This document shows, one piece after another, positions 5,098 through 33,135 of a DNA stretch of 34,355 nucleotides. The stretch spans positions 1 to 34,355 of the forward strand of contig JAGOOG010000021.1 of assembly GCA_017992605.1 (NCBI GenBank). The letters are read 5' to 3'. The notes beneath the pieces were generated by a model that searched no databases, was not told where the DNA came from, and saw only the letters and a list, made by a program, of their open reading frames with translations. The stretch comes from Deltaproteobacteria bacterium. GTDB taxonomy: Bacteria > Desulfobacterota > Desulfomonilia > UBA1062. Positions within the stretch are counted from its first letter, which is position 1; every line of letters begins with the position of its first letter. Position numbers and translations under genes: made by a program.

Positions 5098-5240
5098 AAT
5101 TGGGGTCGGAGTCGATTTATCTTGTCGAAAACGGGGTCGGAATCAGAAATTGGGGTCGGAGTCGATTTATTCCGGCAGCGTGAAAATTGGGTTCGGGGTC
5201 GATCTGATCGGGTGAAAATGGGTCGGTGTTGATTTACTCC
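5097..5240 (+). repeat. Tandem degenerate repeat array, core ttggggtcggagtcgatt
   Basis: Five copies fill the gap between convergent rfbA and the PIN gene: 5097-5120 and 5147-5170 (24 identical bases), and degenerate ones near 5128-5146, 5182-5204 and 5214-5236. The third and fifth are followed by the same tccggcag, so the unit has duplicated together with the last codons of the PIN gene. The array starts at the rfbA stop. In the opposite direction TAAATC from the repeat supplies the stop of the PIN gene. Further copies lie at 20665-20687 and 26182-26203. Confidence 0.85.
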
Positions 5241-6099: not shown

Positions 6100-6190
6100 T
6101 TGACAAGGCATGATGTCCACGCGTATCACGGTGCGCATGTAATCGTTGCTGTGTTTTCGCCCTCGCTTTGCAAGAGCGAGAATGTGGAGG
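6100..6190 (+). promoter_or_regulatory. Promoter and structured leader of the exported-protein operon
   Basis: TTGACA (6100-6105) and TATCAC (6124-6129) have an 18-base spacer. The leader contains a perfect hairpin CTCGCT-TTGCAAG-AGCGAG (6162-6180) only five bases before the GGAGG ribosome site at 6186-6190. The hairpin could modulate ribosome access. Confidence 0.4.
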
Positions 6191-6200
6191 TTGTCTTCAA

Positions 6201-9200
6201 ATGAACAACACGTGCCGAGTCTACCGGTGTGTCTCGTGGTCTGTCCTGAGGATCGCCCTTTTCTTCGTGCTCTGCCTGGAGGTCTTTGTCCTTGCATTCC
6301 TGTTTCTTCTGGCCGGGCAGGTCGCAGCCGTGGCCTGCCCGGTGGAACCTTTCCCGGAGATCGTCCTCGAGAAGAACACGCCCCTGGGGTGCGAGATGGT
6401 CCTCGATGCCGCGGTATTTCCGGGTGTCCAGGGGGATCCCGGGTGCGTCGAGTGGTACGGACCGTTCGATCCTGCCGATGACCCGGACCAGGCCGTCAAC
6501 CTGCCCGAGGGGACCCACACGGTCACCATGTTCACCTGCGACGGCGGGCGGCGATCGGACCCGCACGTCCTGCGTGTCACCGTGGAGCCCGCCTTCGACA
6601 TCCTCCCCATCCCCCTGCGGGGAAGGGCGGTCATCGCGTGGCCGGGCATGGACGGGGCGGAGCGGTACGCCGTCCATCGGGCGCGCGAAGACAGGCCGTG
6701 GAGCTTCGAGCTCGTCGCCGAGCTGCCACCATCGAGCTGCCTCTATGCCGACGCCGGCCTCGACGATGCCGCCTACCTCTACGTGGTGGGCGCACTGAAG
6801 GGCGGGCACTGGTCGTTTTCCCAGGTCAGGGGCGTGCACCCCTTCACCCTCTGGCCGAGGCTGAACTACCCGCCGGTCATCTGGTCGCCGCCCGTGCTCT
6901 CGGGCACCGTGGGCATCGAATACACCTACGACGTGCACGCCGCCGACCCGTACCGGGACAGTCTCACCCATGTGTTGGTCGGCCCCCCGCCGGGCATGGC
7001 CATCGATGCCGGCAGCGGGATCATCACGTGGAAGCCCGCATGGGTGGGCGACTACGAGATCGTGGTCAAGGCCAGGGACTGCAGGGGCCTGTATCATGCC
7101 CAGACCTTCATCGTCGAGGTGGACGAACTTCCCGCGCTGAACCGGGACCCTCTGGCCGACGCCGGCGGCCCGTACCGCTCCGTACCCGGGCAGGCCGTGA
7201 CCTTCGACGGCACGGGCTCGTCGGACCCGGACGGCGACCCGCTGTCGTTCCTCTGGCACTTCGGTGACGGTGCGAGCGGGACCGGCAGCACCCCGGTCCA
7301 CACGTACACGGCCCCGGGGACCTACGAGGTGACGCTTGCAGTCGCCGACGGCAGGGGAGGAGAGGGCACAGACACCGCCACGGTCACGGTGCAGGCATGC
7401 GTGCCGGCCACGGTCGACCTCTCGGCGAGCCCGGCCGCAGTGCTGCCCGGTGAGCCCTGCACCCTGGTCTGGTCCTCGCGGCACGCCGCGGCCGTGACCC
7501 TCGACCACGGCATCGGCGCGGTGGACGCCTCGGGGACCGTGACCGTGCACCCCGGCACCACCACCACCTACACCATCACCGCCACCGGTCCGTGCGGGTC
7601 TGCCACGGATTCGGTCACCGTGGTGGTCCACCAGCCGCCTTCCGTGGACATCACGGCAGACCCGGCAACCATTGTCGCCGGGCAGTCGTCCCTGCTGTCG
7701 TGGACATCGTCCCGCGCGGAGACGGTGACCATGGACCATGGCATCGGTGTCGTGCCGGCAGCCGGGTCCGTGACCGTCTCGCCCGCAGGGACCACCACCT
7801 ACACCGTCACGGCCGACGGGCCCGGGGGGGTCGCCACCGACGCGGCCACGGTCACGGTTCTCGATCCTCCCGCCGTGACGATCGCTGCCCAGCCGCCGGT
7901 CATCATCGAGGGGCGGGCCTCCACCCTGACCTGGGTGTCCGAACACGCATCGAGCGCCTCCCTGGACCACGGCATCGGCCAGGTGGCCCTGGCTGGCTCC
8001 CTGGAGGTGATGCCCCTGGCGACCACGACCTATACCCTCACGGTGCAGGGACCGGCGGGCACGGCCGCGGCCACAGCGACCGTCGAGGTGATCCCCAGGC
8101 CCACGGTGAGCATCGCGGCATCGCCCAATCCCGTCGATGCCGGGCAGACCTCCGTGCTGAGCTGGGCCTCTGCCCACGCACAGAGCGCCTCCATCGACCA
8201 GGGCATAGGAGTGGTGGACCCTTCGGGATCCCTCGAGGTGAGCCCTGCCGGGACCACCACCTACACCGTCACGGCGACCGGTCCGGGCGGCACGGCAACG
8301 GCGGGCGTGACCGTGGAGGTCAACCACCCCGAGCCGGCCAGGAAGACCTGCGCATACATAACCAACTGCGGCGGCGATGACGTGACGGTCGTCGATGTCG
8401 GCACGGACGAGGTCATCGGACGCGTCCAGACCGGCTACGGCCCGTACGGCGTGGACGTGAGCCCGGACGGGGACAGGGTCTACGTCACCACCGAGGAGGA
8501 GGGCATCGTGCTCATCGATGCGGCCACGAACACGGTAGTCGCGACCATACCGGCCAACGCGACCACGGTCGCGGTGAGCCCGGACGGCACGGTTCTCTAC
8601 GCGGTGTCGACGTGGGAGGAAAAGCTGAGTGCCATCGATGCGGAAACCCATGAACCGATCGGGTCCGTGGCCGTCGGTCCGTCTCCCCGGGGCATCGCCG
8701 TGAAACCCGACGGGACGAGGGTCTACGTCTCGAGCCTCGCGGACGGCACCGTCCGGGTCATCGATGCCGCGAGCCTCGAGGTGCTCGACACCGTGCAGGC
8801 GGCAGAACCCTGGGCGTCGGTGTGCGACCTGGAGGTGAGCCCGGACGGGGCCAGGCTGTATGCCATCTCCGATGCCTCGCTCATGCTCACGGTCATGGAC
8901 ACGGCCACCAACGAGGTCGTCGACTCGCGGTACTACCTCATAGAGCGAACCCCCGACGATGCGTACCTTGCCGTGAGCCCCGACGGGCAGCAGCTCCATG
9001 TGAGCTATCACCACTCCGGCGGGTCGGTCCTTGCCATCGACGCTGACACCCTGGAGGTCATCGGCACCGTCGAGACCGGGTACCCCTCCGACCTGTCCTT
9101 CGCACCGGACGGGTCGCGGCTGTATGTCCCCGATGTGGCGATGAACGGCGTGACCGTTGTCCAAGCCCTGTCTCATGGGATCGCGGCGTCCATCGAGGAC

Positions 9201-11012
9201 GCCTTCATGTCCCCCTACACGTGCGGGCACTTCGTCGCCGAGCACCGGGAGCTCATGGAAGGCCGGGTCACTGCCGACGGCCGTGGTGTCGAGGGTGTCG
9301 GCGTCACCCTGACAGGTGACCGCCTCACGAGGCGCTCTTCCACCGACAGCCAGGGCAGGTATTTCTTTTACGCCCCTGCCGGGAGCTATGCCCTGTCCTT
9401 CGCCAGGAACGGCCACATCTTCTCCCAGCAGACACTGAACGTGGAGGTGGTGGACCACGAGGTGCCGGTTGCCGATGTCGAGGTCCTGCTCGGCGTGAGG
9501 TTCCGGGCAGAGCCACAGGCCATAGCTCAAGGCGGGTCCGCTGCCCTGCACTGGGACACGCTCAGGGCAGAGGCTGTGTCCATCGACCAGGGCATCGGTG
9601 CGGTCGACGCGAGCGGGACCCGCGCTGTCTCCCCCCACGAGACCACGACCTACACCATCACGGCCCATGACGCCCAGGGCAGGACGGTCTCGGACCAGGT
9701 CACAGTCGTGGTCCACCAGCCGCCCCTGGTGAGCTTCACCGCGCAACCGGAAGGCATCGCCCAGGGCCAGTCCGCCGTGCTGAGCTGGTCATGTGCGAAC
9801 GCAGACACGCTCACCCTGCAGCCCATGGGCTGGACCGTGAGTCCCTCGGGGTCGTATACGGTCCGTCCGGAGGAGACCACCACCTACGGCATCGTGGCCA
9901 CGGGCCCGGGAGGAACCACAACCGCCTCTGCCACGGTGACCGTGCACCAGCCGCCTGCGGTGAGCATCTCGGCCGATCCCCTGACCATCTACGCGGGCCA
10001 GGCCGCGACCCTGTTCTGGACATCGACCGGTGCCGACCAGGTGACCCTGGACAACGGCATCGGCGCCCTAGCTTCGAGTGGGTCCCTGCCGGTGTCGCCG
10101 AACCGGACCACCACCTACACCGTTACCGCCACCGGGCCGGGCGGCACGGCCGCCGCAGCGGTGACGATCACGGTCAACAGCGTCATCACCCTGCACATCG
10201 ACGCGCCTGCTGCGAATTCCATCATCGACCGACCCGACGTCCTCGTGACGGGCACCGTGAGCCATGCCTACGGACACGAGACCGGGGTGAGTGTCAACGG
10301 CATCCCGGCCATGATCCACGGCAACCGGTTCGTGGCCAACCACGTGCCGCTCGAAGACGGCGAGAACGAGATCGCCGTGACGGCCCGGGACCTTGCCGGA
10401 AACTCGGCCGAGCTCCGGATCAGCGTCGTGTCGGAAGTGACCGGCCCTTACATCACGCTGACCATGGACGACAGTGCCGGGGTCTCGCCGTTCGATACCC
10501 TTCTGAGGGTGGAGTCATGTGCCGACATCATCGGCGTGGACCTGACGGACACGGGCTCGGGGGCTGTCGAATACACCGATGGAACCGAGACGCATGAAAG
10601 GTTCGTGCATGTTTCTGACGAAGGAGTCTACTTCATATCTGCAGAGGTGTCGGGCGGGGGAACGGTGCTCACCGACACCATCGGCATCGTCGTGCATGAC
10701 AGGAACGAACTGGATGGCCTCCTGAGGGGGAAATGGGAAGCCCTGCGCACGGCGCTCGGAAACGATGACATCGATGCCGCGGTGCGCGATGTTTCGGGCA
10801 GGACCAGACAGGTATACACGAACGCCTTCGGTTACCTGTCAGATGAACAGAGGAACACCCTGGTCACTGAACTGGGCGACATCAGGTTCATCAGGATGCA
10901 AGGCGGGTCTGTGGAGTATGACATTCAGATGGAACGGGCAGGGGTGCACCGCTCGTTCGCTCTGCTCTTCGAGATCGATGAGGACGGGCTGTGGAAGATC
11001 TCGCGTTTTTGA
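6201..11012 (+). CDS. Very large exported PKD / Ig-like / YVTN-propeller repeat protein
   Basis: The 1603-residue product starts at ATG 6201 (GGAGG ten bases upstream) with a long hydrophobic signal or anchor (residues about 15-44). Approximate order: fibronectin-like and cadherin-like N-terminal part (to 310); a PKD domain (313-398) with [18 protein letters not shown]; four Ig-like modules (399-710), each with a D[HQ]GIG signature and TTTYTxTxxGPxG; a YVTN beta-propeller of about six blades (714-990, SPDGxxVYV motifs); a carboxypeptidase-regulatory-like module (about 1016-1096); three more Ig-like modules (1100-1326); a Big/glucodextranase-like domain (1330-1413, [19 protein letters not shown]); and a 190-residue tail. 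It is probably surface-exposed or periplasmic and suited to adhesion or scaffolding. No enzyme domain is visible. The two downstream genes look co-transcribed. Confidence 0.88.
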
Positions 11013-11072
11013 CAAGAAGTGGCGATAGAATAGTACCAGATGGCGTACCTATGAAGGGGGCAGGAGGTGAAC

Positions 11073-11852
11073 ATGTGGAACAAGGTATTCACGTTTGTGT
11101 GTCTGGCACTGGTGTTCTCTCCGCAATGTCTGGTCGGGTCCGACATGTTCGGCACCTTCACCTACCGGGGCAAGGTCGTCGATGCCGACACACTGCAGCC
11201 CATTCAGGGGGCGGTGGTAGTTGCCGAGTGGTACAAGTGCTGGCCCGGCATCGGGGCAGGAGAGCTTTGCGACTTCAGCATGGCGAAGGAGGCACTGACC
11301 GATGCCAATGGGGAGTGGAGCATCACCGGGCCGGAGGGTACGTGGGTTCCATCGACATTTCGAGCGATTCTCGGGTTCATTGTACGTTGGACTCGACCTC
11401 CCATTTTTATGATCTATAAACCAGGATATTTTCTCTATGGGAAGTATGGACAAGGAAGCAGAAACGGCTTCAGGGCGATTCCTTACGAAGACAAAGAAAG
11501 AGGTGTTGCGGGCATAGCACTTGAGAGATCAGCTACCATGCTAGAGGAATTATATGGCCTCGATATCGATTTTAACAATGAAGTGCCGTTTATTTCAGCT
11601 GATGATCCGGTAAAACGTCTCAGGTCGATGGATTTCACATTCAAATATAGCAAGAACGTACAAAAAATCCCATTAAGAAAATTGAACTACCCATGGTGCC
11701 AATATTGGGTGCTGGGTCTTAAAAAAACCGCGACAGAAAAAGAGTGGAGAAAAGAACAGCTGACATCCGGAAACGTTTCTGAATGGGAACACCTGCCCCT
11801 GTTGAGGAAGGTCATCGGTGAAGAGATCAAAAATCCGATACAATTTGATTAG
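11073..11852 (+). CDS. Exported protein with carboxypeptidase-regulatory-like domain
   Basis: A 259-residue protein with signal peptide (residues 1-22, VFTFVCLALVFSPQCLVGS). It is followed by a transthyretin-like fold: FTYRGKVVDADTLQPIQGAV, then TDANGEWSITGP, as in carboxypeptidase regulatory or Cna-B-type modules. The C-terminal 150 residues match no family I know. I chose ATG 11073 because AGGAGG lies five bases before it. It is 60 bases after the giant gene and 29 bases before the next, so an operon is likely. From about 11,390 onward the DNA turns A/T-rich, unlike the first third of the gene. Confidence 0.75.
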   Translation: MWNKVFTFVCLALVFSPQCLVGSDMFGTFTYRGKVVDADTLQPIQGAVVVAEWYKCWPGIGAGELCDFSMAKEALTDANGEWSITGPEGTWVPSTFRAILGFIVRWTRPPIFMIYKPGYFLYGKYGQGSRNGFRAIPYEDKERGVAGIALERSATMLEELYGLDIDFNNEVPFISADDPVKRLRSMDFTFKYSKNVQKIPLRKLNYPWCQYWVLGLKKTATEKEWRKEQLTSGNVSEWEHLPLLRKVIGEEIKNPIQFD

Positions 11853-12570
11853 CAATTTTGAATGAAATAGGAGGTCGTTACATGAACATGCAAAGTAGGG
11901 TGATTATTGTTTGCGTAGGTCTGATAATACTTTCTCTCAGCAATACTGAGATACAATGTTATGAAAAGATCACCCACGAGCAGATCAACACATTCATTCT
12001 TTCTGAAGATATTTGTGATTTCTCTCTGAACGATTATCTCATGAACAATGTCGGTCTCATTCGGGGAGTTAAGCATGAACTTGCCGACCGGCCAGTGATA
12101 TATAATGATTGGTTCGGTGTCATCCTGAAGGCCAAACAGACACCCGAGCGTTGCATCTCTGAAGGCGGGAGAGATGAAGACTCGCCGTTTATACGGTGTA
12201 AGAATCATTTCCATGACCCGCTCAAAGAATGGAGTAGAGCAGGGCTCTACGAAGGTGGAGTACTGGCGGGTGGCGATTCATCGATACTCTGGGCCCAGAG
12301 AGAAGAAGGAACTCAATATCTCGGCAATTACAGCTGGCATGATGTAAGACAATACTTTTACAGGGGACTCACCTCAAGTGAAGATAAAGAAAGGGCCGAG
12401 AATCTAATCAAGACATTCAATGGTGTTGGGCGCCTGATGCACTTGGTTCAAGATTCATCAGTACCTGAACATGTAAGAAATGATGGCCATGTACTTCCAA
12501 TACTTAATTTTGAAAAATATTTATCGGGAAATGAAATTCATAAGTGGCTCATAAACCAAACATGCTATGC
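11390..12570. other. Low-GC block spanning two genes
   Basis: Base composition falls to roughly 30-40% GC per 60-base line between about 11,390 and 12,570, against about 60% or more on both sides. The left edge lies within the carboxypeptidase-regulatory-like gene and the right edge within the phospholipase-like gene. Both frames stay open across the edges. This suggests replacement by recombination with a divergent copy, not a whole-gene insertion. Confidence 0.6.
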
Positions 12571-14029
12571 CTTCATGAGTTCTGCCTTCAGCCTCCCGCC
12601 CAACACCCATGCCCCTGTTCCCGTGGCCCGGATCGTTGACACGGACAGGTACGACGGGACGAATCCCGACGTGACCATGACTTCTCCCACGGGTCTCGCT
12701 GAGTACACCAATGCGAATTATTTCAGCACGGACACTGTGTTCACGACCGATGACTACCCGTACCCCAGCTGGGAGAGCGTAAACCACACGGTGATACGGG
12801 TTCAGGATCCCCGAAATGAAGCGGACGATGTGCACAGGGAATACCTCGTGAAAATGCATCATGGCGACACGTCATACCGTCTCTGCACGGCCCCGGTTCT
12901 CTATGGGCAGGTGCCTGAAACGGTCGATTACCTTGCCCCGATACTCGACGAGAACGTCTACGGGGACTATGCCGAGCGCCTCATTCCCCGTGCGGTCTCC
13001 TATTCCGCAGGGCTCCTGAAGTACTTCTTCAGGGGCACGCTGGAGCTGAAGCTGCCGCCAGACGGGGTCTATTGCTTCAGGCCCGACGAACCTGCAGACC
13101 CGAGGACGCAGGGATTCGACAGGGTGTCCCTGTATGTGAGGAACACCACGGACACGGGGGAGCAGATGACAGGGGGGTCCATCGATCTGGTCGTGAAATA
13201 CAGGTTCCTGACGGACGACCCCGATGCACAGGACCCGAGGCCGGCGGCGAGGGACCCTTTTGCCCAGTACACCCCGGAGAATCTCCCGGCACTGAGCGAT
13301 CCGCTATACATCGTCAAGAAGCTCGACGACCGGACCGACCACCAGATACCCTTATCTGAACCCGTGCTGATCGAATTCGACCTGAGCGACGACCAGATCC
13401 CCCTATGGGCCGTCGACGTGTCGTTCTCGGTGGTGTACCGGGGGAGGCTCGGGGGAGGGGAACACGGCCATGTCGTCGAGGAGGGTGCCGTGTGCGTCGG
13501 ATACAACGACGTAGCCGAGCCCACGCCGTTGTATGTCGTCAATGACACGGACACGGTCTGTTACAACGACGAGTGGAGAAGGGCCTCTGATCTCGATGAC
13601 GTGACACCCACCATGATCACCCACGCATACATCCGGTTCTCCGAGGAGGGACAGCCTCGAGATGCCACGGTCGAGCAGGGAGGTCATATCCACTCGTTCC
13701 TCAACCTCGACCCGGGCAGGTACAAGAGGGTCTACCTGCTGAGCGATTACCGGTACAACCAGAGTGTTCACTATGTGTACCACCTCGCCGGAGAGAGTGA
13801 TGTTTTCAGCGAGACGGCAACCTTCTTGCGGCAATCGATTCGCAGTGGTATTTTCTACGACCAGGATTCCGATGCACTGACCAGGCATTACCCGGTGCTG
13901 GACACGTTCAGGAATGTGACGTTCTGGAACATGTTCTACGTTCACAATCCTGACGTATGCACACTGGACACATGCCCGGGCGACTGCGACTACCATGACA
14001 ACCCCTATGAACTGACGCAGACGGAATAG
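11882..14029 (+). CDS. Exported zinc-dependent phospholipase C / S1-P1 nuclease-like protein
   Basis: The 715-residue protein starts at ATG 11882 (GGAGG seven bases upstream) with a signal peptide (about 1-26). The early THEQIN motif, HFHDP (about 109-113) and RLMHLVQDSSVPEHVRND (about 183-200) supply the spaced His and Asp residues of the all-helical zinc PLC / S1-P1 fold. The last 300 residues form a separate beta-rich region ending in a Cys-containing tail (CTLDTCPGDC). I infer a metal-dependent hydrolase acting outside the cytoplasm; whether lipid or nucleic acid is the substrate is not decided. Codon composition changes from A/T-rich to G/C-rich near codon 230. Confidence 0.65.
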   Translation: MNMQSRVIIVCVGLIILSLSNTEIQCYEKITHEQINTFILSEDICDFSLNDYLMNNVGLIRGVKHELADRPVIYNDWFGVILKAKQTPERCISEGGRDEDSPFIRCKNHFHDPLKEWSRAGLYEGGVLAGGDSSILWAQREEGTQYLGNYSWHDVRQYFYRGLTSSEDKERAENLIKTFNGVGRLMHLVQDSSVPEHVRNDGHVLPILNFEKYLSGNEIHKWLINQTCYAFMSSAFSLPPNTHAPVPVARIVDTDRYDGTNPDVTMTSPTGLAEYTNANYFSTDTVFTTDDYPYPSWESVNHTVIRVQDPRNEADDVHREYLVKMHHGDTSYRLCTAPVLYGQVPETVDYLAPILDENVYGDYAERLIPRAVSYSAGLLKYFFRGTLELKLPPDGVYCFRPDEPADPRTQGFDRVSLYVRNTTDTGEQMTGGSIDLVVKYRFLTDDPDAQDPRPAARDPFAQYTPENLPALSDPLYIVKKLDDRTDHQIPLSEPVLIEFDLSDDQIPLWAVDVSFSVVYRGRLGGGEHGHVVEEGAVCVGYNDVAEPTPLYVVNDTDTVCYNDEWRRASDLDDVTPTMITHAYIRFSEEGQPRDATVEQGGHIHSFLNLDPGRYKRVYLLSDYRYNQSVHYVYHLAGESDVFSETATFLRQSIRSGIFYDQDSDALTRHYPVLDTFRNVTFWNMFYVHNPDVCTLDTCPGDCDYHDNPYELTQTE

Positions 14030-14130
14030 AATGGCCCCCGAAGTGCAACTCGAAGGGGCGTACATGCTCCATGGAATGCAGTACGGGATCTGATCATTGC
14101 CATGACGTGTTCACTTATGAGGAGGTGCCC

Positions 14131-14832
14131 ATGCCCTGGCCAGCGCCGCTTGAAGTCCCCGGTGTTGCTTATCATGTCGTTCACAGTGGGAACGGTCAAC
14201 CGATCACCTTCTCCTGCGACGCGGACTACCGCGTGTACAGGACCCTGATCGCGACCTACTGCAGCGGGTACGCTCTGGATGTCTGGGCATACTGCCTGCT
14301 GCCGGACCGCGTGCACCTCGTGGCGGTGCCGGGGAGGATCGAAAGCGTCCGGAAGGCGGTCGCCGAGGCTCATCGATACTACAACAGGCACATCAACCTG
14401 GTGAAGAACTGGAGGGGGAAACTGTGGCAGGGGCGCCTCGCTCTGTACCCTGTCGCCGAAGATCACCTCATTCCAGCGGCGAGATACGTGGAGATGCTGC
14501 CCGTACACGCCGGGCTCTCGGAAAGTGCCCTCGACTATTCCTGGAGCAGCGCCAGGGCACACTGCCAGGGAGCGGATGACGAACTGGTCCGGGTGAAGCC
14601 GCTGCTCGACATGGCAGGTGACTGGCGAAAACTGCTCCAGGTCCGCCTCAGGAAGCCGGACGTGGACCGTCTCCGGCTCCACGAGAAAACGGGACGACCT
14701 TTGGGCAGCGAAGCGTTCGTCCATGAAATCGAGCGGGCACTGAGCCGGATCATCGGGCAACAGAAACCCGGGCGGAAACGGAAAGGGGATCAGCGCAAGC
14801 CAACCCCTGTTCCCCTGCGTATCCGGGCATAG
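14131..14832 (+). CDS. REP-associated tyrosine transposase-like protein (Y1/IS200 superfamily) with altered HUH motif
   Basis: The 233-residue protein has the RAYT layout. PGVAYHVVHSG (about 9-19) is the first strand. YCLLPDRVHLVAVP (about 54-67) stands where MPNHVHLxAVP is usual. EAHRYYNRHINLV contains the likely catalytic Tyr (83 or 84). Then come WRGKLWQGRLALYPV, AARYVEMLPVHAGL and YSWSSARAH. GAGGAGG precedes ATG 14131. The metal-binding His-x-His is Arg60-Val-His62: codon CGC at 14308 would be CAC with one base changed. Nicking activity is therefore doubtful. RAYTs usually mobilise or maintain short palindromic repeats, and this window contains several. The C-terminus is basic (KPGRKRKGDQRK). 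Confidence 0.85.
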   Translation: MPWPAPLEVPGVAYHVVHSGNGQPITFSCDADYRVYRTLIATYCSGYALDVWAYCLLPDRVHLVAVPGRIESVRKAVAEAHRYYNRHINLVKNWRGKLWQGRLALYPVAEDHLIPAARYVEMLPVHAGLSESALDYSWSSARAHCQGADDELVRVKPLLDMAGDWRKLLQVRLRKPDVDRLRLHEKTGRPLGSEAFVHEIERALSRIIGQQKPGRKRKGDQRKPTPVPLRIRA

Positions 14833-14869
14833 AATGTCTGTGTCTTGCACCCTGGTGACGGTTATCTCT

Positions 14870-14903
14870 TTGCACGGTGCCATGTATTACGCTATACATC
14901 ACA
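14870..14903 (+). promoter_or_regulatory. Weak promoter candidate with palindrome upstream of the DUF3783 gene
   Basis: TTGCAC (14870-14875) and TATACA (14893-14898) are 17 bases apart. A palindrome ATGTAT-TACGCT-ATACAT overlaps the -10. The leader would be about 90 bases. Both hexamers are only partial matches. Confidence 0.3.
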
Positions 14904-14996
14904 CATGATTCAAACCCATCCTCGAGAGTGATTTCCCTGGTTCGTTCCCCCGGATTTCTATGGTACAAGGAAGGACCACCGCAAGGAGACGACGAC

Positions 14997-15395
14997 ATGG
15001 ACACGAGCCCGAGGATCTACTACTGGGGGTTTACCCCCGAGGAGCTGCTGCTCCTCGATGCCTTTCTCCAGGAGCTCTCTGCGCCGCAGAGCCTGGTGAT
15101 CGAGCCCGAACACGCCCACCTGACGGTCCACGAGATCCTGTTCTCGGAGAAGAAGGCCGGTGAGGAGCTAGTGCCGGACGAGAAGGTGATGCTCTTCTTC
15201 AACGTCCCTGCGGAGCTCATCCAGCAGATCATGAAGGGCGCCAAGACCAGGGACGTGCCGCGGCCCATCTATGCCATGGTCACCAAGGAGAACATCGCGT
15301 GGAAGTTCAGCGACCTGGTCGACCACCTCAAGAAGGAGCACGAGTTCATGCAGAGGCGGTTCAGCGGGCGGAAGGAAAACGGCGAAGGGCACTGA
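14997..15395 (+). CDS. DUF3783-domain protein
   Basis: The 132-residue cytosolic protein begins MDTSPRIYYWGFTPEELLLL and continues with a paired beta/alpha layout, including EKVMLFFNVPAELIQQIMKG and MVTKENIAWKFSDLVDHLKKEH. These match the DUF3783 family as I know it, whose members have no established function. AAGGAG stands eight bases before ATG 14997. The plsC-like gene starts 20 bases after its stop, so the two are probably co-transcribed. The relationship to lipid synthesis is only positional. Confidence 0.75.
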   Translation: MDTSPRIYYWGFTPEELLLLDAFLQELSAPQSLVIEPEHAHLTVHEILFSEKKAGEELVPDEKVMLFFNVPAELIQQIMKGAKTRDVPRPIYAMVTKENIAWKFSDLVDHLKKEHEFMQRRFSGRKENGEGH

Positions 15396-15415
15396 GCGGC
15401 AGAGGAGAGACCCAC

Positions 15416-16165
15416 ATGAAGGCATCGCTCCCGAAGAAGCTGTCCATCCTGGCCACCACGGTGGGCTCGACCCTGGGCATCTCGATCTACGTGCTCTACC
15501 TGAGGATGACCGCCAGCTATGACAGGCACTACGCCGACGGGGTGCTCCGCTGGTGGTCGTCGCTGCTCCTGCGGGCCGTGGGTGCGACCTGGGAGGTCAT
15601 GAACCCGAAGGGCGTGAAGGTCGTTCCCGGGCGGCCCTGCATCGTCATGTCCAACCACCGCAGCCACTACGACATCCCCCTCATCTTCGTGTCCCTGGAC
15701 GGCAGCATCCGCATGCTCACCAAGAAGGAGCTCTTCAGGATACCGCTGTGGGGCAGGGGCATGAAGGCGGCGGAGTTCATTTCCATTGACCGGCACAACC
15801 ACGAACAGGCCATCAAGGACCTCAAGGAGGCGCGCAGGATGATGGAGGACGGCATCGTCCTGTGGGTGGCCCCCGAGGGGACCAGGACCCGCACGGGAAG
15901 ACTCGGGACATTCAAGAAGGGCGGTTTCATGCTGGCCCTCGACCTCGGGGCGGTCATCATCCCGGTGGGCATCCGGGGCTCCGAGAAGATCCACCGGCCC
16001 GGCAGCTCGGACCTCAACCTGGGCCAGAGGGTGCAGGTCTCCATCGGCGATCCCATCGATGCGTCCACGTATCGGGAAGACGAGCGCGACAGGCTCATGG
16101 ACGACGTCCGCAGGGCCATCGCGGAACTTGCCGGCGAGGGGGAACAGGCCGTTTCCGGGAAATGA
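15416..16165 (+). CDS. plsC: 1-acyl-sn-glycerol-3-phosphate acyltransferase
   Basis: The 249-residue protein has one N-terminal membrane segment (about 10-28). The acyltransferase motifs follow: NHRSHYD (about 80-86, catalytic His and Asp), KKELFRIPLWG, and PEGTRTRTGRLGTFKKGG (about 153-170), then VIIPVGIRG. This set defines PlsC, which adds the second acyl chain to lysophosphatidic acid at the inner membrane. The GAGGAGAG ribosome site lies before ATG 15416. It converges with the LPS kinase gene; a GGGCGC / GCGCCC inverted repeat (16170-16191) separates them. A related acyltransferase specificity cannot be excluded. Confidence 0.93.
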   Translation: MKASLPKKLSILATTVGSTLGISIYVLYLRMTASYDRHYADGVLRWWSSLLLRAVGATWEVMNPKGVKVVPGRPCIVMSNHRSHYDIPLIFVSLDGSIRMLTKKELFRIPLWGRGMKAAEFISIDRHNHEQAIKDLKEARRMMEDGIVLWVAPEGTRTRTGRLGTFKKGGFMLALDLGAVIIPVGIRGSEKIHRPGSSDLNLGQRVQVSIGDPIDASTYREDERDRLMDDVRRAIAELAGEGEQAVSGK

Positions 16166-20631: not shown

Positions 20632-21180
20632 TCACCCATGCCTGGTAAGTCGGGGGCATGCAATAAAATCGACTCCGACCCCAATTACGGACCCCAATGA
20701 GGATTGTCTTTTTTTCACGAGCACCACTGCCTGGGCGGCGATGGCATCGCCGGCGCCGATCTCCCCGAGGCCCTCGTGGGTGCGGAACTTGACGGACACC
20801 GCAGAAGGGTCGATGCCCGCAGCCCCGGCGACAGAGACGACCATGTCCTGCCTGTACCCCGACAGCCTGGGCTTCTCGCAGATGCAGTTGATGTCGATGT
20901 TCACGATTTCGTAGTCAGGCACAACGGTCTCGAGGAGGCCCTTGAGCATGGCCAGGGAGTTCATGCCCTCGGTCTCTGCCGAGGTGTCGGGGTAGAGGAC
21001 GCCGATGTCGCCCCGGGCCAGGGCCCCGAGGATGGCGTCGCACACGGCGTGGATCACCACGTCGCCGTCGGAGTGTCCCAGCAGGCCCTTCTCGAAGGGT
21101 ACGTCGACCCCGCCGATGACAAGCGGCCTGCCCGGGACGAGCCGGTGTATGTCGAAGCCTATGCCGATCCTGAAAGGCAT
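20632..21180 (-). CDS. ispF: 2-C-methyl-D-erythritol 2,4-cyclodiphosphate synthase with repeat-derived tail
   Basis: IspF makes the cyclic diphosphate of the non-mevalonate isoprenoid pathway. Metal ligands are in GIGFDIHRL (residues 6-14) and GHSDGDVVIHA (about 35-45); CEKPRLSGY and EGLGEIGAGDAIAAQAVVLV follow. The protein is 182 residues, although the family usually ends near 158-160, just after this last segment. The final 22 codons come from a repeat element: TCA at 20700-20698 stands where other copies give the TAA stop. An A7 run shortly upstream could also cause slippage. ATG 21180 overlaps ispD by 22 bases. Confidence 0.95.
   Translation of the reverse strand: MPFRIGIGFDIHRLVPGRPLVIGGVDVPFEKGLLGHSDGDVVIHAVCDAILGALARGDIGVLYPDTSAETEGMNSLAMLKGLLETVVPDYEIVNIDINCICEKPRLSGYRQDMVVSVAGAAGIDPSAVSVKFRTHEGLGEIGAGDAIAAQAVVLVKKRQSSLGSVIGVGVDFIACPRLTRHG
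20665..20687 (-). repeat. Core repeat copy at the 3' end of ispF
   Basis: The minus strand carries the core ttggggtcggagtcgatt with the same flanks as at 26182-26203. A partial copy (cattggggtcc) precedes it at 20690-20700. Both are translated as part of the ispF frame. Confidence 0.85.
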
Positions 21181-24284: not shown

Positions 24285-26183
24285 ATGGGCAACCAGGACA
24301 CCACCATTGCGGGCGGACTCAGGGCATTCACGCTCTACAACCGCGCCAAGAAGGATTTCATGTACAAATGCGATCCGGTGGGCGCCCGGGTCGTGCTCGA
24401 GTTCCTCCCGCTGCTCCTCCACATCAACCACCCCTCCCTGCCGGGACATATCAGTGGCGACGACTGCCCGTGCGGCGTCAAGCTCATGGACTGGCCCGCC
24501 AAGACCCTCAAGGAGGTCGGTTCGTTCTTCTCCTCCCGGATGAAGATCGGGAACGTCCACGACTACCTGCCGCGGGAACACGAGATCGAGGGCCTCTTCA
24601 CCATCGGATCCGTGGGCAGCCTCGCCCAGACGAGGGACTCCGACTACGACATCTGGGTGGTGGTCGACTCGAGGAAGGTGAGTCCCGTGCGGCTCAAGGT
24701 GCTGGACAGGAAACTGAAGCTGCTCAAGCGCTGGATCAGCGGCAAGTTCGTGCTGGCCATCCACTTCTTCCTCATGGACCTCCAGGACATCCGGACGAAC
24801 ACCTTCGGCGACGTGTCCCATGAGGGGTCGGGGTCGGCACTGAAGAGCATCCTCAAGGAGGAGTTCTACCGCACCATGACCCTCATCGAGGGGCGGGTTC
24901 CGCTGTGGTGGGTCGTGCCTCCCGGCACCGGGGCCGAGGGCTATGAGGAGCTGCGCAGGGCCCTCCAGGCCAGGTCGAACGGGGGCTCCGAAGAGTTCAT
25001 CGACATGGGCGACATCGAGGCCATCCCGGAACAGGAGCTGCTGGGTGCTGCCTTGTGGCAGATGCACAAGGCCCTGGACGACCCCCTCAAGTCGGTCCTC
25101 AAGATGGCCCTGGTGGCAAGCTACCTGGACACGCCGGACCAGGGCAGGCTCCTGTGCAACATGCTCAAGAGGAACGTGCTCGATGCCAGCAGGGGCGGGA
25201 TCGTGGACCCCTACTACCACATCCTGCGCCGCGTGGAAGACTTCTACGGGAGCCGGGGGGACGACCGGACCGTGGATCTCCTGAGGAAGTGCTTCTATCT
25301 CAAGGTGAACCCCTCCATACGGGGGTCCGACCTGGTCAGGATCGAGCGGAACGACAAGGCTACCATCATGGTGGACATCGTGAAATCCTGGGGGTGGTCG
25401 CTGAAGGCCGTCTCCGAGCTGAACGGATTTTCCGAGTGGGGAGTTGACCTGTACCGCAAATTCGGAGACGACATCCACTCCTTTCTCAAGCTGACCACGA
25501 TCCAGCTCATCCGGAGGGCCAAGGCGTACATGATCCACTCCGCCCTGGACGAGGACGTCGAGGTGGAGATCCTCAGGCGCAGGATCGAGGCCTTCTACGT
25601 CTCGAAGGACGGCAAGGTCGAGTCCGAGAAGCGGGTGAAGAAGAGGGAGCCGGCCTACCGGGACCTCTACTTCGCCTACCGGAGAGAGAGCTGGAGCATC
25701 TACGAGCAGATGCCCGAACTGAAGACGGACAGGCCCATCATGGAGTCTGCCAGGGTGGCCAGGATACTCGCGTGGCTCGTGTACAACAAGAGGTTCGACG
25801 CGTCCACGGCCTTCCACATGATCCCGAACACGTCCCGGGTCGTCCTGTCCGATATCCAGGCCCTCCTGTGGAAGCTGGGAAAGCTCATTCCGGATGCCGG
25901 CTCCATCGGGCTGGACCGGCTGTCCCTCATGGAAGACAAGTACGCCAGGTTCGTGGTGGTCATCGGCAACATGGAGTGCCCAGACAACCAGCACGCCATA
26001 CAGGAAGTGGACGTGATTTTCCTGAACACCTGGAACGAGCTCTTCTGCGTCTCCATGAGACCCGAGCAGCTCGGCGCCTGGATGGCCCGGATGAAGAGGC
26101 ACTCCACCAGGGTCACGACCTGGCTGCCCAAGGAAGGCAACACCAGGGTCCTGAACCAGGCGCTCGTGTCGCTGACCTCCTAA
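24285..26183 (+). CDS. Class I (CyaA-type) adenylate cyclase-like protein
   Basis: The 632-residue protein matches the catalytic half of enterobacterial CyaA. GSVGSLAQTRDSDYDIWVVV (about 110-129) is the nucleotidyltransferase motif Gly-Ser...Asp-x-Asp, and FFLMDLQDIRTNTFG plus LKEEFYRTMTLIEGRVPLWWVVP follow as in CyaA. These enzymes make cAMP from ATP in the cytoplasm. It is shorter than E. coli CyaA (848 residues); the glucose-responsive C-terminal half is not recognisable. The TTG codon before ATG 24285 is an alternative start; no strong ribosome site is visible. The TAA stop overlaps a repeat copy. Confidence 0.85.
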   Translation: MGNQDTTIAGGLRAFTLYNRAKKDFMYKCDPVGARVVLEFLPLLLHINHPSLPGHISGDDCPCGVKLMDWPAKTLKEVGSFFSSRMKIGNVHDYLPREHEIEGLFTIGSVGSLAQTRDSDYDIWVVVDSRKVSPVRLKVLDRKLKLLKRWISGKFVLAIHFFLMDLQDIRTNTFGDVSHEGSGSALKSILKEEFYRTMTLIEGRVPLWWVVPPGTGAEGYEELRRALQARSNGGSEEFIDMGDIEAIPEQELLGAALWQMHKALDDPLKSVLKMALVASYLDTPDQGRLLCNMLKRNVLDASRGGIVDPYYHILRRVEDFYGSRGDDRTVDLLRKCFYLKVNPSIRGSDLVRIERNDKATIMVDIVKSWGWSLKAVSELNGFSEWGVDLYRKFGDDIHSFLKLTTIQLIRRAKAYMIHSALDEDVEVEILRRRIEAFYVSKDGKVESEKRVKKREPAYRDLYFAYRRESWSIYEQMPELKTDRPIMESARVARILAWLVYNKRFDASTAFHMIPNTSRVVLSDIQALLWKLGKLIPDAGSIGLDRLSLMEDKYARFVVVIGNMECPDNQHAIQEVDVIFLNTWNELFCVSMRPEQLGAWMARMKRHSTRVTTWLPKEGNTRVLNQALVSLTS

Positions 26184-26267
26184 TTGGGGTCGGAGTCGAT
26201 TTTCTTCACGTACGGTTCCCTCGATCACCCGAACAGGGCCGAAGAGCATCGCAGCGCCTTCGGCGCT
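26182..26267 (+). repeat. Bipartite repeat element, copy 2
   Basis: The core repeat (26182-26203) begins on the stop codon of the cyclase gene. About 47 bases later comes the palindrome AGCGCC-TTC-GGCGCT (26253-26267) inside a 16-base segment identical to copy 1 at 20609-20624. Core and palindrome are in the same order and at similar spacing in both copies. Confidence 0.75.
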
Positions 26268-31000: not shown

Positions 31001-31017
31001 TCCGATAGGGGCATCCG

Positions 31018-33135
31018 GTGGACAACGATGTTCATGGCATGGTAACCGCCAATGGCGTGCGTTGTGATGAGGGCTCGGCATCGACGGCCCATGGCATACA
31101 ATTCAGGAGAGCTGACCTGAAAAGCGCCTTTTTCGCGAAGAGAAAGGTCGACCGGAAACGTTTCATCAATACCCTGAATTATCACAATTTCATGGGCTTT
31201 CAGGTGTTCGCCCTCGTAAGGCACGGGCTAACTCGAGAGGAATTTCTCTTCAAGGTAGACCCAGGACCGTGCAGGGAAGATCATGTCTTCTGCTCGCTGG
31301 CAGCCAGCATCCAGGGGTCCATGGACGCCTTCGAGATCGAAGGGCTGGTCATAGACAACGGTGATTCGGTGATCCTCATGGACATCGATTCTGAGAAGAG
31401 ATCGTCCCGATCCTTCACCGCACGGTTCAAGGGGGCAGCCGCATCGTTCCAGACGCGCCATATAAAACGGCACCCGTGTTCCATGGTGGAGGCGCACATC
31501 AAATTCACAGAGGGCGCCTTTGACGGGAGCCTTCAAGAATTCCACCCCTCAGGGCTGCGCATCGCGGTGATGGAAGAATTCCGGGACAAGGTCGGCTCCC
31601 TGAGGCAGGGAGACACATCGACCATTCACCTCTTCAGAAACGGTGAGCGGGTATACTCGGGAACGGCGCAACTGGTGCGATCTGACTCGGAAAGCGGCAC
31701 CATCGTCCTGAACCCCCTCAACGTGCCGTCCAGGAAATATGATGAGAGGAAGTTCAGGAACGCAAGGCTCAACCCTGTGCCGAGCCCCCGTATCACGTTC
31801 GAGCATACGTTCACTGAAAAGAGGGTTTCCTATGACGTGGTCGATATCAATACGTCTGGGTTCTCCATTGCGGAGCGCTCCGAACAGGTGCTTCTCATAC
31901 CCGGCATGATATTCCACGACGTGGAGATCGTTTTCTCAGGCGAGTTTGCATTGAAGTGCTCGGCACAGGTGGTGTATGGCAGGAAGCAGTGGGGAGGCAT
32001 GACGAAGTACGGCTTCGTCATCACGGATATCGGCCCGGTGACGTATACCCGCCTGTTCAACCTGCTCACCCGTACCGATGACCCCCATTCCGTCGCCTCG
32101 TCCAAGGTCCCCCTCGATGCGCTCTGGGAGTTCTTCTTCCGCTCCGGCTTCATTTACCCCGACAAGTACCGTTGCATAAGCCAGTATAAGGAAACGTTCA
32201 AGGGGACCTATGAACACCTCTATCACCACTGCCCCGAGATATTCTCCAGTCTCACCTACCAGATGAATGACCAGATCTACGGTCACGTGTCGATCATCAA
32301 GGCCTATCCATCGACGTGGATGGTGCATCACCTGGCGGCCCTGCCCATGGGGAGGAAACGGACAGGACTCTTTGTCCTGCAGCAGATACTCAATTACCTC
32401 GACGGGTTCCACCGGATGCCGTCCGTCGGGATGAAGTACCTGGTATTCTACTACCGCCCGGACAACAAGTTTCCGAACCACTTCTTCGGCGGCGTCTGCC
32501 GTATCCTCAACGCCCCTCACATGTGTTCAGTGGACACGTTCGCGTACCTCACGCACCCCCTCCCTGAAGAGATCGTGGACCTGCCTGTGGGCTGGAACCT
32601 GGCCCGGTGCACCGGGGATGATCTCGCCGCGCTCCATGAGGCATATCACCGCAGTTCGCAGGGGCTCATGATCGAGGCGTTCGACCTCGAGAACGAGGAC
32701 GATACCCTCTGGGAGACCTACGGGAGACTGGGGCTGCGAAGGGAATGCAGGCCTTACGTGCTGACCAGGGACGGAGACCGGGTGGCTTTCCTTCTTGTCG
32801 ACCGGTCCGACAGGGGGTTGAATCTCTCCGACCTGCTCAACGACATAAAGATCATCGTCCCCTATCCGGACCCGCGGGTGCTGCCCTGGAAGATACTGCA
32901 GACGGCCATCGCTACGCTGGGGAAAGAATACGGCACACCCGAGGTGGTCCTGCAGGTCTTCCCGAGCGCATACCTCGAGGCGGTGGGAGTTCCCTACCCC
33001 AAGAAATATTGCATGTGGATAGCGAAGACACGGTATTTCGATCCGCACTTCGATGCAATCAAGAGGATGACCAAGTTCAAGTACCTGAAATTCATCAAGA
33101 GTCTCCTGGAATCCATGCTCGGTTTCCATAGATAA
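31018..33135 (+). CDS. PilZ-domain protein with C-terminal acyltransferase-like region
   Basis: The 705-residue protein starts at GTG 31018 (a later ATG at 31042 is possible). Residues about 243-345 form a PilZ domain: RNARLNPVP is a diverged basic N-terminal loop, and DINTSGFSI (about 276-284) is the DxSxxG-type motif that binds cyclic-di-GMP. The preceding region (40-240) looks like a second, diverged PilZ/YcgR-N-like fold. The C-terminal half (about 365-690) has patterns such as YGHVSIIKAYPSTWMVHHLA and GLFVLQQILNYL that recall GNAT-like acyltransferases. I infer a c-di-GMP-responsive protein. The diverged RxxxR means ligand binding is unproven. Confidence 0.7.
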   Translation: MDNDVHGMVTANGVRCDEGSASTAHGIQFRRADLKSAFFAKRKVDRKRFINTLNYHNFMGFQVFALVRHGLTREEFLFKVDPGPCREDHVFCSLAASIQGSMDAFEIEGLVIDNGDSVILMDIDSEKRSSRSFTARFKGAAASFQTRHIKRHPCSMVEAHIKFTEGAFDGSLQEFHPSGLRIAVMEEFRDKVGSLRQGDTSTIHLFRNGERVYSGTAQLVRSDSESGTIVLNPLNVPSRKYDERKFRNARLNPVPSPRITFEHTFTEKRVSYDVVDINTSGFSIAERSEQVLLIPGMIFHDVEIVFSGEFALKCSAQVVYGRKQWGGMTKYGFVITDIGPVTYTRLFNLLTRTDDPHSVASSKVPLDALWEFFFRSGFIYPDKYRCISQYKETFKGTYEHLYHHCPEIFSSLTYQMNDQIYGHVSIIKAYPSTWMVHHLAALPMGRKRTGLFVLQQILNYLDGFHRMPSVGMKYLVFYYRPDNKFPNHFFGGVCRILNAPHMCSVDTFAYLTHPLPEEIVDLPVGWNLARCTGDDLAALHEAYHRSSQGLMIEAFDLENEDDTLWETYGRLGLRRECRPYVLTRDGDRVAFLLVDRSDRGLNLSDLLNDIKIIVPYPDPRVLPWKILQTAIATLGKEYGTPEVVLQVFPSAYLEAVGVPYPKKYCMWIAKTRYFDPHFDAIKRMTKFKYLKFIKSLLESMLGFHR

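Follow-up and report, generated by a model that had tools for sequence, protein, structure and literature searches.

The question raised by this locus is whether a transposase gene that has lost part of its active site is still kept for something other than transposition. The gene lies at 14131–14832 on the plus strand of the 34,355-nucleotide contig analysed here (the window). An earlier note on this DNA had described it as a RAYT-like transposase reading Arg-Val-His in place of the His-x-His of the HUH motif, and had offered two readings, recent inactivation or an immobilised domestic form that retains DNA binding. The open frame, the RVH at residues 60–62 and the codon CGC at 14308–14310 were all confirmed.

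The metal site of a Y1 (HUH) transposase

The 233-residue product matches the Pfam family Y1_Tnp (PF01797) with a score of 24.3 bits against a cut-off of 23. With NF047646 (REP_Tyr_transpos) it scores 35.6 bits, under the curated cut-off of 80, a threshold that is strict for this subclass, since the copy in a sister species and three motif-intact relatives also score only 62.6–69.9. An AlphaFold2 model, built with 30 homologues and leaning on these relatives, has a mean pLDDT of 90 and a pTM of 0.85, with predicted helices reaching residue 204 and low confidence over the last ~20 residues. Its best match among solved structures is the E. coli REP transposase (4er8_A; Foldseek E 7.7e-08), which superposes with a Z of 16.6 and an rmsd of 2.3 over 157 aligned residues; IS608 and ISDra2 TnpA follow at Z 7.7–9.4 (9.4 for IS608). 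Both the sequence and the fold of the Y1 domain place the descent of the gene in the Y1 (HUH) transposase superfamily. The domain identity is sound, and the modelled fold appears intact. As read from the sequence, a strong ribosome-binding-site-like element, AGGAGGTG (14120–14127, plus strand), lies 3 bases 5′ of the ATG. Promoter- and terminator-like sites between 13900 and 15100 are all on the minus strand, and the sole match in an Rfam scan was a tRNA at 539–611.

The protein was aligned with 42 homologues from its own genome and phylum. These 43 sequences were drawn from 62 loci (L001–L062), the 19 left out being duplicates (L004 of L002, L005 of L001), an IS200 type (L003), partial copies and more distant types; for aligned copies with internal stops, X was written at each stop. 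At position 60 (CGC, 14308–14310, plus strand) the first His of HUH is lost in the window protein. All 41 homologues with a residue there, of 42 aligned and one gapped, have His, so the Arg is no chance variation. The orthologues, whose comparison the earlier note had called for, keep His as well, and in the left-out loci the first motif residue is His wherever it can be read (L011 is without that part). The second His is retained (His62, CAC, 14314–14316, plus strand), and residues 60–62 read Arg60-Val61-His62, which is not an HUH motif. The catalytic tyrosine is in place, as had been claimed: Tyr119 (TAC, 14485–14487, plus strand) is Tyr in 41 of 42 homologues and sits close to the end of predicted helix 110–121.

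The statement that the rest of the conserved set was intact does not survive the alignment. Leu123 (CTG, 14497–14499, plus strand) occupies a position at which all 41 readable homologues have Asn, and the class 2 TnpA signature Y---NP is replaced by Y119-V-E-M-L123-P. Passages of PMC6006769 assign to this Asn (N119 of E. coli TnpA-REP), in class-2 enzymes, the part of third ligand to the essential metal, and report the Gln ligand of IS608 to be indispensable for in vivo transposition. Two of the three metal ligands are gone from the window protein and, given the known role of the lost residues, nicking or joining of single-stranded DNA by this protein is no longer expected. Invariant columns are also broken by P13A, M57L and R19S, the last at a codon (14185–14187, plus strand) where the Arg of the RGN motif is present in 42 of 42 homologues.

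Altogether the protein departs from 5 of the 15 columns invariant among the other 42 sequences and from 16 of the 61 conserved at ≥80%. All 16 losses fall at or before residue 123 (16/43, against 0/18 after it; Fisher P 0.0015), and the C-terminal part, residues 125–233 (14503–14829, plus strand), has kept every conserved position. In the other 42 sequences pooled, departures are about equal in the two parts, at 132/1792 in the core and 69/740 in the tail. The same asymmetry is nevertheless seen in a broken relative with two stops, L012 (12/43 core and 0/18 tail losses), and the core-biased loss is therefore not proof of function. R19S, like further changes in the core, might impair DNA binding too.

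Codon 60 is CGC in the window and CAT in the sister copy, whilst codon 123 is CTG against AAC, differing at all three bases, and the changes are therefore not the outcome of one recent hit or a read error. It had been noted that CGC is one base from CAC, which is true of the codon itself; the sister, however, uses CAT, and Leu123 needs three bases. Inactivation is strongly upheld by the missing ligands, but its supposed recency fits neither the 16 losses nor the three-base codon change. Sequencing error was considered as a cause in its own right and is ruled out by the 16 changes, one of them needing three bases.

Element type, terminal repeats and the sister locus

The window gene is nearest to the TIRYT, TnpA Y1 subclass 2.1 (RAYT group 1), and is not a REP-linked RAYT, an assignment that rests on features of the protein and not on the HMMs of the subclass's own authors. 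Passages of PMC6006769 describe subclass 2.1 as found without REPs, thought by its authors probably to equal the TIRYT, and give a median length of 238 residues, close to the 233 found here; TIRYT are presented in part of PMC3733652 as transposases with terminal inverted repeats (TIRs) of consensus GGGGWSAS. The window protein has the WQ motif, the SS motif after the core (S139-S140) and the C-terminal extension of the subclass, with conserved positions up to G214. It differs from TIRYT in reading RVH for HUH and Y---LP for Y---NP, and in the absence of terminal repeats. Its relatives do carry GGGGWSAS-type repeats at their flanks: inward GGGGACA lies within 300 bp of the gene on at least one side in 31 of 42 homologues, and on both sides in 21. 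Around the window gene, two scans found no GGGGACA or GGGGWSAS-type repeat within 300 bp, the nearest GGGGWSAS matches in the window being at 10284 and 18328. With such repeats present at the sister locus and absent here, the suggestion that the element is immobilised is supported.

Compared with E. coli TnpA-REP (subclass 2.2), with which it shares a predicted fold, the window gene has no adjoining REP, only 13% identity in the alignment and a lack of two of the three metal ligands. A search of the genome with the DNA at 13950–15050 gave no further match below E 0.03, and the inverted repeats in 13500–15500 look ordinary, which speaks against REP or other palindromes adjoining the gene. IS200/IS605 TnpA proteins (IS608, ISDra2) have in common with it the core fold and a single catalytic Tyr, but the window gene is single copy, shows no IS ends, carries a C-terminal extension and has lost the metal site.

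Homologues were sought in two sets of genomes, 24 from the family and 395 from the phylum, the window genome being G000. The closest relative in those genomes, 59% identical, is in a sister species of the same genus (G003), and lies on its contig C1 within the same gene order as window genes 11067, 11885, 14997, 15410, 16202, uvrB and cysS. This copy reads NHVHL and YVEKNP, with all ligands present. The shared order points to vertical inheritance at a fixed locus, in two species only. In a 12-taxon tree a split with support of 100 separates the window and sister copies from all others. Horizontal arrival of an already-dead copy is unsupported, the closest relative being at the same locus and grouped with it at that support. 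GTDB 220 contigs yielded no closer homologue, only one weak locus with an intact HUH.

The upstream neighbours at 11067–11852 (plus strand; 41% identity to L063) and 11885–14029 (plus strand; 40% identity to L063) are common to the sister locus in the same order, and the downstream neighbour, a DUF3783 gene (14997–15395, plus strand), occurs in every one of the five genomes compared from the genus. The two upstream genes have no Pfam match and are fast-evolving, with 40–41% identity to the sister against 90% for nearby uvrB. Further upstream, 6168–11012 encodes a protein of 1614 residues that combines PKD and beta-propeller-like domains; the gene contains six internal repeats of 99 bases. In G004 everything from the end of that gene to the DUF3783 gene, transposase and both upstream neighbours included, is lost; judged from its sequence, a putative transposase-like stretch occupies its place (L074 1–1230, G004:C145). 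In G001 and G002 the DUF3783–acyltransferase–kinase–uvrB side is present, with no related transposase there (best E 0.18). These three genomes are uninformative on the active site. The dead form is carried by one genome only, with no second species having it.

The sister copy is flanked by GGGGACAGCATAC repeats, and its terminal repeat, GGGGACAGNATAC, occurs 82 times in the G003 genome. With at most one mismatch, the pattern GGGGACASNATACNTANTT gives 82 copies in G003, 10 in G012 and 7 in G028, with reversed controls at 0, and none in G000, G001, G002 or G004. At up to three mismatches G000 has 10 matches against 17 for the reversed control, which is background. One match to the ancestral repeat in G000 has two mismatches (C4:1603) and an inverted partner at C4:1578; this pair scores 31 of 38, whereas six other stretches of G000, the window included, reach no more than 26. 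It is probably a relic of the sister repeat family (L093 1578–1621), nested inside a cluster of newer repeats, and the other three-mismatch matches are chance.

The window genome has two other Y1 genes, an IS200 type at C12:154855 (EHVH) and a RAYT-like gene at C30:83739 (NHVH, YIERNP). The latter (G000:C30:83739–84293; L002, L064) answers the search, proposed earlier, for RAYT genes with an intact HUH elsewhere in the genome. It is of the same class as the window gene, 42% identical and likewise without GGGGACA ends, but differs in its intact HUH and NP. Intact copies related to it in G001, G003 and G004 (L065, L009 and L010 among the loci) are 41–44% identical to the window protein. In both G000 and G003 the C30-type gene lies near a gene ~43% identical to window gene 31009–33132.

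Selection, decay and a possible binding role

We consider the window protein probably to be either a non-catalytic binding protein, which we favour, or the product of a slowly decaying pseudogene. On balance the sequence comparisons point to a vertically inherited, immobile and catalytically inactive TIRYT derivative, partly constrained and perhaps kept as a DNA-binding protein. The main rival, that the gene lost its ends and its activity and is drifting, its frame intact through chance or because little time has passed since the loss, is possible but doubtful. It is consistent with the absence of flanking repeats, with the loss of a third of the invariant columns, 5 of 15, and with a window branch of 0.75 amino-acid changes per site in the 12-taxon tree, over fivefold longer than the 0.13 of the sister branch. 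Against it, window and sister copies align without a gap over 217 codons (dN/dS 0.18, dS 1.37), the conserved positions of the tail are all retained (18/18), and the ribosome-binding site is strong.

Codon branch models bear on the same choice; they were fitted with purpose-written code to 12 taxa and 216 codons, with P values from chi-square with one degree of freedom, and because synonymous sites are near saturation the values of w are rough. A single w of 0.066 (lnL -6810.72) is improved upon by a model with 0.254 on the window branch and 0.059 elsewhere (lnL -6803.98; 2ΔlnL 13.5, P ~0.0002), a rise that speaks for decay. Fixing w at 1 on the window branch is however rejected (lnL -6808.00; 2ΔlnL 8.0, P ~0.005 against neutrality), which argues against drift throughout, although an average of 0.25 could equally combine an older constrained phase with a recent neutral one. 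When the gene is split at residue 123, w rises from a background of 0.039 to 0.333 on the window branch in the core, and from 0.090 to 0.185 in the tail; core and tail differ on this branch by 2ΔlnL 4.8, and the tail shows no significant difference from its background (2ΔlnL 2.6). Freeing the sister branch as well brings little gain in lnL; w is then 0.246 in the core and 0.136 in the tail on the window branch, and 0.116 (core) and 0.195 (tail) on the sister branch. The absence of stops also counts against decay, although in a neutral simulation with 26% of codons changed ~3 stops were expected and none arose with P ~0.05, so that their absence is only moderately surprising under neutrality. 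Evolution of the window gene is relaxed and probably not neutral, as far as one branch with near-saturated synonymous sites can show. The domestic DNA-binding form proposed in the earlier note receives indirect support from w below 1, the constrained tail and the intact predicted fold.

For the inactive, partly constrained derivative that we favour, the course of events may be pictured as follows. A TIR-flanked Y1 (HUH) transposase gene would have entered the locus in the common ancestor of the window species and G003 and been inherited vertically in both, as the synteny suggests. In the sister lineage the active-site residues are still there, along with numerous terminal repeats; in the window lineage the first HUH His and the Asn that follows the Tyr are gone, as are the flanking repeats. 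Selection would have continued to act on the reading frame with its ribosome-binding site, on the predicted fold and on the C-terminal part, if more weakly than in the relatives, as the codon models indicate. The likeliest mechanism would be that of a non-catalytic protein with a REP-transposase-like fold that binds hairpin or single-stranded DNA and, once bound, could shut off sites of this kind, or an active paralogue.

For a transposase relic to have lost catalytic residues is ordinary in itself; the interest lies in the contrast between sister species at one locus: a single syntenic site holds an intact enzyme with 82 repeats in one, and a metal-site-dead protein with essentially none in the other. 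RAYT- and TIRYT-type transposases keep HUH and Tyr in the descriptions given in parts of PMC3733652 and PMC8266576, so that any benefit to the host cannot be told apart from nuclease activity. Among the open-access papers searched, no title or abstract opening reports a RAYT or TIRYT without HUH, or gives an example of an HUH transposase exapted without nuclease activity. Such an exaptation is what the window gene would represent if the reading is true. Should the dead form prove to be maintained, these two loci would make it directly testable whether binding is of use by itself and whether repeat populations collapse once the nuclease dies.

Defective transposases repress their elements elsewhere. 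By analogy, a dead Y1 transposase kept as a pure binding protein may have helped to silence and extinguish its own repeat family, through hairpin occupancy or the poisoning of active subunits, a speculative extension that we regard as rather unlikely.

A species-private repeat family

It had also been suggested that palindromic repeats in the window could be the substrates of the protein. These repeats belong to a different family, private to the species. A TIR-like repeat, AATTGGGGTCGGAGTCGATTT, is present in two copies at 5098–5168 on the plus strand (5098–5118 and 5148–5168) with a degenerate third at 5185–5205, and again at 20666–20686 (minus strand) and 26182–26202 (plus strand). The family, also written GGGGTCRGAGTCGATTT and AAAATGGGGTCRGAGTCGATTTT, has 43 copies in G000 at up to three mismatches (control 0) and 2 in G004, and none in G001, G002, G003, G012 or G028; beyond the window its loci are L092–L105. 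An 18-base form, GGGGTCRGAGTCGATTTW, occurs in 35 exact copies in G000 and is absent from the remaining 394 genomes of the phylum sample, a set that contains G002, G012 and G028 but not G001, G003 or G004. The copies are mostly inverted pairs a few tens of bases apart, among them the GGGGTCRGAGTC pair. They resemble TIR dimers; they are not the ancestral repeats of the window gene, and no result here ties them to it.

A changed target, in which the protein acts on the GGGGTCRGAGTCGATTT family, perhaps with a partner, would explain the fast evolution of the core. The restriction of the family to G000 and G004 among the genomes searched is in keeping with this, as are the five of its 43 places, one degenerate, that fall in this 34-kb contig, and the fact that each of the three Y1 genes detected in the assembly is free of an adjoining copy, with no cognate transposase found there. 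We nevertheless hold it to be very unlikely, because the metal ligands are lost, no private repeat lies within ~5.8 kb of the gene, against TIRs within 300 bp in relatives, and the cognate transposase may simply be unassembled or lost, one repeat copy being at a contig end (C44:33–53). That the protein has remained a working single-strand nuclease, whether through an unusual metal site built from His62 and other residues or through a metal-independent reaction, would accord with its catalytic Tyr, its second His and its modelled fold, but is barely credible, since Arg and Leu are not expected to stand in for two of three protein ligands (roles as given in passages of PMC6006769) and its own repeats have all but vanished from G000.

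Partial, stuttered copies of the outer end of the private repeat (such as AAAATGGTAAAATGGT before a full repeat) are seen in L099 (~880–990), L101 (~288–431) and L103 (~362–415), and resemble the outcome of recurrent strand transfer or slippage at the ends of pairs.
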